From an uncultured Erysipelotrichaceae bacterium (GTDB lineage: Bacteria; Bacillota_I; Bacilli_A; RF39; UBA660): a stretch of 64,000 nt of DNA. The notes under the pieces are model-generated. The model ran no database searches, was not told the DNA's origin, and saw only the letters and a list, made by a program, of their open reading frames with translations. Location of the stretch: positions 1-64,000 of the forward strand of contig CADANC010000004.1 in NCBI GenBank assembly GCA_902789225.1. The letters run 5' to 3'. The position numbers and the translations under genes were made by a program. Shown piece after piece: positions 30,547-33,226 of the stretch. Position 1 is the stretch's first letter, and the number at the start of each line of letters is the position of its first letter.

Positions 30547-31221
30547 ATGAAAAAAGGAACTAGATTATATATCAATTTAACAAATAAATGTAATACTAAC
30601 TGTCCATTCTGCTGTATGTATTCTGGAACAGATAAAAATACTTTTATGGATTTTAAAACATTTAAAAAGATAATTGATAACTGTAAAGGAAAATTTGAAT
30701 TACAACTTGAAGGAGGAGAACCAATTCTTAATAAAGATATCTTTCTTTTTATAGAATATGCAATAAGTACCAATAGATGTTTAAAAATAATTATTTTAAG
30801 TAATGGTATTGAATTACAAAAGTATATGAAGAGATTTATAGATATAGCTAACTGGAATAATATCTTAATAGAATTCAAAATTAGTATTAATTATTGGTTA
30901 ATAAAAGTAGAAAAAGATTTCTTATATAAAATGAATCTACTATTATTTTCAGTTAAGTATATTAAAAATATTAATATCATATTTAATGTAAGAAAAAGAA
31001 AAGATAAAGATGAGAACCTAGATAATCTATTAAAAGAAAATGATTTATATGATCATTCTAATATTTATTATCTGCAATCTTATGGAAAATTAAAGAATAG
31101 TAATTATGATAAACCTGTAATAGTACAAAATATTGATAATTGGTTTATATATGCAAGTGATGGCACTTGTTTTAACCAAGATCTGATTGCTAGAAGTGAC
31201 TATGAGGAGAAATTACTATGA
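30547..31221 (+). CDS. Short radical SAM protein 1 of the NAD cluster
   Basis: 224 aa with AAGAGGAGC upstream. The radical SAM motif sits at the N-terminus (LTNKCNTNCPFCCMY, CxxxCxxC) and is followed by LQLEGGEPILN (GGEP, SAM-binding). The chain is shorter than most family members, so the barrel is partial. A single late Cys in ASDGTCFNQD could ligate or serve catalysis. It overlaps the next radical SAM gene by ATGA. Substrate unknown; no precursor peptide gene is seen. Confidence 0.85.
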   Translation: MKKGTRLYINLTNKCNTNCPFCCMYSGTDKNTFMDFKTFKKIIDNCKGKFELQLEGGEPILNKDIFLFIEYAISTNRCLKIIILSNGIELQKYMKRFIDIANWNNILIEFKISINYWLIKVEKDFLYKMNLLLFSVKYIKNINIIFNVRKRKDKDENLDNLLKENDLYDHSNIYYLQSYGKLKNSNYDKPVIVQNIDNWFIYASDGTCFNQDLIARSDYEEKLL

Positions 31222-32144
31222 ATACATTAAAATTTACTAAAAAAAGTGAACTCTCTACTGAACAACATAATCAAGAAGTACACAAAGAAAAAGAAATAAA
31301 GATTTTTGATAAGAAAGTAAATATTTATATCCCTAACAACTTATCTTTATTTATTACTAATGTCTGTAATTCAAAATGTTTCTTTTGCATAAATAGTAAT
31401 TATACAAATCAGGATGAAAGTGATAATTTTTATTATAAAACTTTAAAAGAAACATTAAATGAATTATCTCCAAGTGAGTTTGAAATAACAATTACAGGAG
31501 GAGAACCAACACTTAAGATTGAAAGATTTGTTAAGACATTAAAAATGTGCCATGAATATGGATTTCATTTTAGAACAATAAGTACTAATGGACTTAATTT
31601 ACTTAAGAAATATAAAGGTAAAGAAGTATGTGAATACATGGTAGAAAACGGTGCTGTACATAACATTAGTATCAGTAGAATGGATATAAAAAATAATAAA
31701 GAAATAATGGGAATTGATTCTATTACTGATAATGATATTGAAAAACTAGCAAACTTCTTCAATAATCATGATGCTGAAATGAGAATAAGCTGTAATTTAA
31801 TAAATGGCTATGTAGATTCGATGGATAAGATTTTAGAATTTGTAAATCATTATCAAAATTTAGGAGTGCCAACTGTAATGTTTAGAGAATTAGTAGGCGT
31901 GAAGTCATCACCTAAAATGATAGATACATTTAAACCAAATAAAGAATTTAAATTAATAGATTACATAGTTGCAGAAGTATATGATGTAGAAGTATATGAA
32001 TATAAAGATTATATAGTTAAACATTATATACAAAAAGAAAATAAAGATAATAATAGCGTTAAAAATACATCATTTAGAAATGGAATTTTAAGAGAAAATT
32101 TTAATGGTAATATAATTAAAAATTTTAAGGAGGAACTAATATGA
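31218..32144 (+). CDS. Radical SAM protein 2 of the NAD cluster
   Basis: 308 aa. A leader of about 45 residues precedes LFITNVCNSKCFFCINSNY (CxxxCxxC) and ITITGGEPTLKIERF (GGEP). Downstream elements are of the MoaA/SPASM-like barrel type (ISTNGLNLL, HNISISRMD, FRELVGVK). I see no C-terminal Cys-rich cluster for extra Fe-S centres. Both ends are ATGA-coupled, so three proteins are made in fixed ratio and may form a complex. Similar in core to the third protein (FRELxG/D), which suggests duplication. Confidence 0.87.
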   Translation: MNTLKFTKKSELSTEQHNQEVHKEKEIKIFDKKVNIYIPNNLSLFITNVCNSKCFFCINSNYTNQDESDNFYYKTLKETLNELSPSEFEITITGGEPTLKIERFVKTLKMCHEYGFHFRTISTNGLNLLKKYKGKEVCEYMVENGAVHNISISRMDIKNNKEIMGIDSITDNDIEKLANFFNNHDAEMRISCNLINGYVDSMDKILEFVNHYQNLGVPTVMFRELVGVKSSPKMIDTFKPNKEFKLIDYIVAEVYDVEVYEYKDYIVKHYIQKENKDNNSVKNTSFRNGILRENFNGNIIKNFKEELI

Positions 32145-33226
32145 AAAAAGTAGGAGCAGAAAGAGAAATAGTTTTTGATAAATCACTTAGATATGCAAGA
32201 CAAAAAGAATATGATGTAAATGAATATGAAATGGTTCCATATCACTTTAAAGATGCTGGAGATAAAAAAGTATATAAGAATTTTAACTTCAGTATATTCA
32301 TTGATGATATATGTAATGCTGATTGTAAGTTTTGTGTAGCGCAACTAAGATATGCACATAGAAGTATGCTTTATAAAAAAATTCATATAAGAAATAAAAA
32401 AGAGTATTTAAGAAGATTAGAAGAAATTCTTAAAGTAGTAAGACCACTTAATCCATCGGTATCTATTACTGGAGGAGAACCAACAATATCTCCAATACTT
32501 ACTGATGTATTAAAACTAGTTGATAAATATGGTTTTAGAAAAAGAACTATAACTACAAACGGTTCAGGATTATTCAATATCCAAGATGGAGATACAATAC
32601 TTAATAATCTAATTAAATATCATTGGGATCATTTAAATATTAGTAGAACTTCATACGATGATAGTATTAATAGAAAAATAATGAGATACGAAAAAGATAA
32701 AGAGTATTCTTCTATGGAAGACTTAAAAAGAATACTTGATATAACTAATAAATCCCCATTAAAACATCGAATAAGTTGTATTTTACTAAAAGAAAGTATA
32801 AATAGTGTGAAAGAGATAAAAAAATATGTTGATGAATATATCAAAGTAGGTGCCAATAATTTTATCTTTAGAGAATTAATGGATTATGATCACAAAGCTG
32901 TTAATAAAGAAAAGATAGAATATTGTGATGCAAATAAAATAAAACTAAATGATATCTGGGAAGACTTTGAAAAATATCCAGAATTAAAACCATATTTAAA
33001 TATATTAGGATATTACTATTATGTAGAAATATATAAATATAAAGGATGTACTATAGCATCAGAGTCAGCTGATCTAAACCAACAATATATAGAAAAAGAA
33101 AAGAATAAAGATACTGTATATGAAATGGTATTCCATACTAATGGAAATCTATGTGGAGGTTGGATAGATAGTGAAGAGATTCTAGATAAATATGAAGGAT
33201 TTGATTTCAAAGAGATTATTAAATAA
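32141..33226 (+). CDS. Radical SAM protein 3 of the NAD cluster
   Basis: 361 aa with AAGGAGGAAC upstream. Motifs: IFIDDICNADCKFCVAQLR (CxxxCxxC), VSITGGEPTISP (GGEP), TITTNGSGLF, HLNISRTSYDD, FIFRELMDYD. Two late Cys (GCTIASESAD, GNLCGGWID) may be catalytic or ligand residues. The core resembles protein 2 and both have around 90-100 extra residues compared with protein 1. The last radical SAM gene is followed by operator site 4 and pncA. Substrate unknown; a link to nicotinamide/NAD chemistry is inferred only from the operon and shared sites. Confidence 0.87.
   Translation: MKKVGAEREIVFDKSLRYARQKEYDVNEYEMVPYHFKDAGDKKVYKNFNFSIFIDDICNADCKFCVAQLRYAHRSMLYKKIHIRNKKEYLRRLEEILKVVRPLNPSVSITGGEPTISPILTDVLKLVDKYGFRKRTITTNGSGLFNIQDGDTILNNLIKYHWDHLNISRTSYDDSINRKIMRYEKDKEYSSMEDLKRILDITNKSPLKHRISCILLKESINSVKEIKKYVDEYIKVGANNFIFRELMDYDHKAVNKEKIEYCDANKIKLNDIWEDFEKYPELKPYLNILGYYYYVEIYKYKGCTIASESADLNQQYIEKEKNKDTVYEMVFHTNGNLCGGWIDSEEILDKYEGFDFKEIIK

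Follow-up and report, generated by a model that had tools for sequence, protein, structure and literature searches.

Radical SAM genes rs1 and rs3 recur beside NAD genes in bacteria, an archaeon and phages and may belong to the NrtR regulon

MoaA and viperin are radical SAM enzymes that act on nucleotides, MoaA on GTP and viperin on CTP or UTP. To our knowledge, the salvage of nicotinamide to NAD includes no radical step. In the open-licence literature, we found no description of a radical SAM module in NAD regulons and no mention of a radical SAM protein together with NrtR and pncA; a published account elsewhere is possible. Phages also carry NAD synthesis genes, as in NARP1, a two-gene Adps/Namat system for phage NAD reconstitution (PMC13232231, PMC12774641), and the first of these papers (PMC13232231) leaves radical SAM proteins unmentioned. 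Here, we describe a cluster in a 64,000-nucleotide stretch of DNA from an uncultured Erysipelotrichaceae bacterium, hereafter the window. With NrtR-regulated NAD salvage operons, it shares pncA, pncB, nadE, nadD, nadK, nrtR and box-like sites; it differs from them by the addition of three radical SAM genes.

The three genes lie on the forward strand in the order rs1 (30547-31221, 224 aa), rs2 (31218-32144, 308 aa) and rs3 (32141-33226, 361 aa). The sequence-only reading had described them as an ATGA-coupled trio heading an NAD salvage cluster, and the open reading frames, Pfam matches and motifs all agree with this description. Both gene junctions (rs1/rs2 and rs2/rs3) are ATGA overlaps, and each protein contains a GGEP motif and a CxxxCxxC motif, with the cysteines at positions 15, 19 and 22 of rs1, 50, 54 and 57 of rs2, and 58, 62 and 65 of rs3. 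All three proteins passed the Pfam Radical_SAM cut-off (PF04055, 29.5 bits), with 38.6 bits for the short rs1, 40.3 for rs2 and 47.5 for rs3; their only Pfam matches are to Radical_SAM and the overlapping Fer4_12. We found that rs2 is a paralogue of rs3, with 28% identity across 238 aa (E = 1e-23), and that rs1 is distinct.

Downstream of rs3, and on the same strand, the order is pncA-pncB-Nudix-nadE-nadD-nadK-nrtR. The pncA-like gene (33293-33886) encodes a nicotinamidase of the isochorismatase family (PF00857, 75 bits) that stays below the NCBIfam nicotinamidase cut-off, while pncB (33943-35427), for nicotinate phosphoribosyltransferase, scores 613.7 bits against the NF006695 cut-off of 469. 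It is followed by a Nudix hydrolase resembling ADP-ribose/NADH pyrophosphatases (35405-35998; PF00293, 53 bits) and by open reading frames for an ammonia-type NAD synthetase (nadE, 36004-36768), nicotinate mononucleotide adenylyltransferase (nadD, 36771-37316) and NAD kinase (nadK, 37321-38115). Related loci encode NAD_synthase-family homologues of the nadE product, and nadD and nadK have homologues in related NAD operons. The last gene, nrtR (38140-38979), encodes the Nudix-winged-helix NAD regulator (NrtR_WHD PF21906, 57.9 bits; NUDIX, 49.3 bits). The same arrangement of genes and sites is present in a congener (G001). Upstream of the trio, at 27765-30313, the window holds a HerA-like ATPase gene and an ATGA-coupled gene for a 232-aa Cys-rich protein, which seem unrelated to the trio because the congener has other genes upstream of rs1.

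The region upstream of rs1 contains a promoter-like sequence on the forward strand (30395-30423), read as TTGACA (30395-30400), a 17-bp spacer and TATAAT (30418-30423). A palindrome scan placed a 27-bp palindrome, TTGTTATTACTATAATGGTAATAACAA, over the -10 element (30408-30434), where it is probably an NrtR operator; it scores 10.0, as compared to a mean of 5.5 and a maximum of 10.0 among shuffled sequences, and similar palindromes head the NAD operons of L032, L042 and L065. In total, the cluster has three NrtR-box-like palindromes before rs1 and one each before pncA and pncB. Besides the 27-bp palindrome, these are GATATTATCAAAAAGATAAAA at 30466-30486, with one mismatch to the degenerate box pattern RATATTAYYAAAATGATAAWA, the 21-mer GATATTACTAAAATGATAATA just upstream of rs1 (30513-30533) and again before pncA (33247-33267), and a site before pncB (33906-33926) without a mismatch to the pattern. 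The palindromes before the first radical SAM gene and pncA, which the earlier reading had called identical, do match over at least 21 bp.

With up to three mismatches, the pattern RATATTAYYAAAATGATAAWA occurs 10 times in the window as compared to 1.55 expected, a number reached by none of 100 shuffles. Genome-wide, matches with three mismatches were no more frequent than those of a reversed control; thus, only strong sites count. With at most one mismatch, the pattern was found genome-wide solely at cluster sites (30466, 30513, 33247 and 33906). The winged-helix protein encoded in the cluster and the operator-like palindromes before rs1, pncA and pncB suggest that NrtR would bind these boxes. 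One further locus (L021) carries rs1-rs2-rs3 without an adjoining NAD gene, yet has NrtR-like boxes upstream of rs1, and its genome encodes two NrtR_WHD proteins. An NrtR_WHD protein was detected in 14 of 17 carrier genomes tested versus 4 of 14 named controls, which were taxonomically unmatched. Upstream of the rs genes of Lachnospiraceae and of most phages, no palindrome scored higher than in shuffled sequences.

Finding relatives required alignment queries. A single search of 84,980 genomes with an rs3 alignment returned 50 loci, and further ones came from viral contigs, in which a scan with the rs3 protein alone gave no match. An rs1 orthologue adjoins rs3 in about 34 loci, and a gut phage, Dulem virus 40, carries the pair at 36% and 49% identity. 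The third radical SAM protein differs by locus, being rs2, a fused rs3 paralogue or phrog_24834. Thus, the three genes reported as a trio are real, but the unit is better seen as a core of rs1 and rs3, to which a third radical SAM gene of varying identity is added. Among 395 sampled members of the class, an rs1 search gave a strong match in the window genome only. Weaker class-wide matches, which scored about 57-74 bits and came mostly from reading frames of about 270-360 aa, were rejected as orthologues and read as other radical SAM families, given their scores and frame lengths. A member of the same family as the window genome (G006) has an NAD operon without the trio (L171). The trio is therefore patchy and missing from a relative's NAD operon, and so is not needed for salvage.

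We found rs1 and rs3 beside NAD genes across several phyla and in phages, in agreement with the linkage proposed from the window. In two Bacilli loci (L031 and L032), the order is pncB-Nudix-nadE-nadD-rs1-rs2-rs3-kinase-ADP-ribosylglycohydrolase-pncC-(nadK)-nrtR, with nadK downstream of the trio in L032 and nrtR downstream in both; L035, L042 and L043 show parts of this order. The trio lies before pncA in the window and between nadD and a P-loop kinase gene in L031 and L032. The kinase adjoins rs3 in six loci, and its profile gave only marginal, adenylate-kinase-type matches in the PDB. In Ruminococcus (L029), pncB, pncA and an NrtR_WHD protein gene adjoin the rs genes. In Elusimicrobiales (L045), pncA, a prs-like gene, a phosphoribosyltransferase gene, nadE and nrtR precede the rs genes and a second nadE. 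A Paludibacteraceae contig (L037) carries NAD-linked rs1-rs3 with prs-like and phosphoribosyltransferase genes nearby. The Woesearchaeota locus (L041) has nadB above the cut-off, a weak NAD-kinase match and an AAA_28 protein downstream. In many other loci, including most of those of Lachnospiraceae (L022-L026 and L030) and those of Acetivibrio (L033) and four phages (L071-L074), no NAD gene was present within 10 kb. Many rs loci are nevertheless NAD-linked, so that relatives are not confined to positions away from NAD genes. When NAD linkage is mapped onto the rs3 tree, at least five changes are required, and sequences from phages and bacteria are intermixed.

Phages carry the module in similar settings. 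One phage operon (L080) reads pncB-rs1-rs3-rSAM-nadE-pncA-nadD-nrtR, and a second phage (L079) also has rs1 and rs3 linked to NAD genes. PF04095, which covers nicotinate and nicotinamide phosphoribosyltransferases, was present in 6 of 8 phage records with rs1 as compared to 3 of 18 phage contigs that served as controls and encode other radical SAM proteins (p = 0.008). These counts are small and include near-duplicates or fragments, and after merging near-duplicates p = 0.017. Both salvage routes, with the nicotinate and the nicotinamide types of phosphoribosyltransferase, accompany rs1 and rs3. The likeness to NARP1 lies in phages carrying NAD synthesis genes and in the prs-like/phosphoribosyltransferase genes, which are adjacent in L045 and L139 and close to rs1-rs3 in L037. 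In contrast, the window cluster has no prs-like gene and no Adps/Namat pair, and its phosphoribosyltransferase is PncB. As a separate observation, a 375-kb phage contig (L173) has a cluster at 4448-10010 with a phosphoribosyltransferase, a glutamine-type NAD synthase, pncA-like and nadD-like genes and a Nudix gene (pncB-nadE-pncA-nadD-Nudix), which is far from the rs1-rs3 pair of the same contig.

The patchy distribution and the mixing of phage and bacterial sequences on the tree might mean that phage-borne genes come to lie beside NAD genes while having no functional tie to them, the more so as some large phages have NAD genes anyway. We regard such hitch-hiking as unlikely, since the genes are embedded in operons in differing orders, in bacteria and in an archaeon, operator-like sites precede rs1, and PF04095 is rarer in the control phages.

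We also considered whether the module might make nicotinate de novo by an alternative route, in place of NadA, NadB and NadC. The window genome lacks nadA and nadC, and the NAD-linked Bacilli genomes of L031, L032, L035 and L042 lack nadA. However, NadA is encoded in 10 of 22 carrier genomes, which makes a general substitute for de novo synthesis unlikely; nadB adjoins the module in the Woesearchaeote, and in phages the module accompanies salvage genes. Together, these data leave this route very improbable.

Next, we turned to the protein families. No NCBIfam cut-off was passed by rs1, rs2 or rs3, and the best matches, all far below threshold, were a tungsten-cofactor rSAM maturase for rs1, HxsC for rs2 and viperin for rs3. 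For QueE (7-carboxy-7-deazaguanine synthase), rs1 reached 29.2 bits against a cut-off of 260. No close homologue with a known substrate was found for any of the three proteins. Their superfamily is known, but none of them falls into a named family.

The AlphaFold model of rs3 (pLDDT 91.3, pTM 0.90, 29 sequences) was closest in the PDB to MoaA (1.3e-12), followed by viperin (4.3e-9), with GDGT synthase, the epimerase EpeE and BlsE as further close fold matches. MoaA and rs3 have in common the radical SAM barrel with its CxxxCxxC and GGEP core, and in the profile alignment the invariant R210 of rs3 aligns with a MoaA lysine (K163, hand-counted). Nevertheless, rs3, rs1 and rs2 score 39.3, 38.8 and 39.5 bits against a MoaA cut-off of 284, their alignments lack the second, C-terminal set of cysteines for a [4Fe-4S] cluster, and rs3 is found in NAD rather than molybdopterin operons. 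Basic residues at positions 70, 133, 135, 210 and 244 of rs3, together with an extra cysteine (Cys213), are kept in all 29 aligned sequences. A phosphorylated nucleotide as substrate would fit both the MoaA/viperin-like fold of the model and these basic residues. Against a nucleotide, close matches of similar fold such as GDGT synthase and EpeE use other substrates.

The likeness of rs3 to viperin raises the question of whether the module performs viperin-like chemistry, producing a nucleotide altered by dehydration or in some other way (an NAD analogue or a chain terminator) for phage-host conflict, for example, in resistance to NADases. The best PADLOC match is a prokaryotic viperin (61 bits with rs3), a kinase often adjoins, as in some viperins, and phages carry the module along with NAD synthesis genes. 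However, rs3, rs2 and rs1 reach 55.5, 40.5 and 28.1 bits against a viperin cut-off of 180, and rs3 differs from viperin in having a second radical SAM partner, rs1, and in its linkage to NAD genes. As rs3 is also found in bacterial housekeeping NAD operons and no defence gene is among the recurrent neighbours, we give this explanation a low probability.

A further alternative is that the module modifies a peptide or protein, by RiPP-type modification or maturation, whose synthesis tracks NAD status. The profile of rs1 matches GDGT synthase, EpeE, MoaA, BlsE and viperin, with the peptide epimerase YydG/EpeE at 5e-12, and paired radical SAM proteins often mature peptides. Radical epimerases have an extra cysteine, to which the invariant Cys213 of rs3 might correspond. 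On the other hand, no protease or exporter is among the recurrent neighbours, and conserved C-terminal cysteines of the SPASM/twitch auxiliary-cluster type were absent from the alignments of rs1 (A4, 34 orthologues from related loci), rs3 (A5) and rs2 (A7). Moreover, no conserved small ORF was found within 2 kb across divergent loci, where only antisense or chance pairs were seen. The trio thus differs from SPASM/twitch RiPP maturases in both its cysteines and the lack of an adjacent conserved precursor peptide. A RiPP with an adjacent precursor is disfavoured on these sequence grounds, and a peptide or protein target in general appears improbable. Invariant in rs1 are Y8, C15, C19, C22, Q53, EGGE at 55-58, K111, N147, R149 and R216.

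The sequence-only reading had tied the trio to NAD status through a nicotinamide-type compound, a peptide or a tRNA. The tie itself is backed by the recurrent linkage and the operator-like sites, and a nicotinamide-type compound is a plausible target. The peptide is unsupported in view of the small-ORF result, and nothing points to tRNA. Because the genes at the boxes encode salvage enzymes and both salvage routes accompany rs1 and rs3, the substrate class is likely to be the product that these routes share, or the compounds into which it breaks down. We therefore tentatively favour, at somewhat less than an even chance, rs1+rs3 as an NrtR-controlled radical SAM module of the NAD regulon that acts on a pyridine or (ADP-)ribosyl nucleotide, with rs2 as a lineage-specific third protein. 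At low NAD, NrtR would leave its boxes, and the cell would make the module along with the salvage enzymes. A radical reaction would then be carried out by rs3, and probably by rs1, on a nucleotide-type substrate, either a pyridine nucleotide or a ribosyl or ADP-ribosyl compound released when NAD is broken down. The product may return to the NAD pool, a modified pyridine nucleotide thereby being repaired or an ADP-ribosyl product recycled, or may serve as an NAD-derived compound; we infer both that the substrate is a nucleotide and which way the reaction runs. With still less confidence, we propose a new, NrtR-controlled radical SAM pathway in the NAD metabolism of bacteria, an archaeon and phages, which might convert a pyridine or ADP-ribose nucleotide into salvageable or modified NAD. 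A functional link would bring to light a hitherto unknown reaction of a central pathway and, possibly, a new tool for NAD-based conflict between phages and their hosts. With its three genes, its operator-like sites and the congener, the module is open to direct tests.

Several relatives have features of their own. The fused rs3 paralogues of Lachnospiraceae (L022:11049-13025, L024:7321-9267 and relatives) have an extra Cys-rich N-terminal domain of ~340 aa, which does not occur in the window and has no Pfam match. A fold search with this domain returned an uncharacterised Helicobacter pylori protein and RecJ (full model pLDDT 73), so that a DHH/RecJ-like fold with a lost DHH motif is possible. 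In Elusimicrobiales (L045:11910-12488) and Dysgonomonas (L048:2855-3379), similar small proteins without a Pfam match and with MNSxKK near their start are encoded directly downstream of rs1. A distant rs3-like family was found in Hymenobacter loci (L052-L060) and at L018:7938-9041, where the member has GLEAT in place of GGEP. The distant relatives from Hymenobacter and jumbo phages were set aside as different family members and used as contrast only. Last, on two IMG/VR jumbo-phage contigs (L160:8848-10816 and L150:8774-10768), two radical SAM genes, one of them RlmN-like, are grouped with a gene for a ~100-aa protein whose sequence ends in EIDPCSHGNFTRTSC or DVDPCGRGGKTSNFSHC. The group resembles a phage cassette for peptide modification, and NMN-adenylyltransferase-like, phosphoribosyltransferase, NadK-like and macrodomain-like genes are present on L160 as well.
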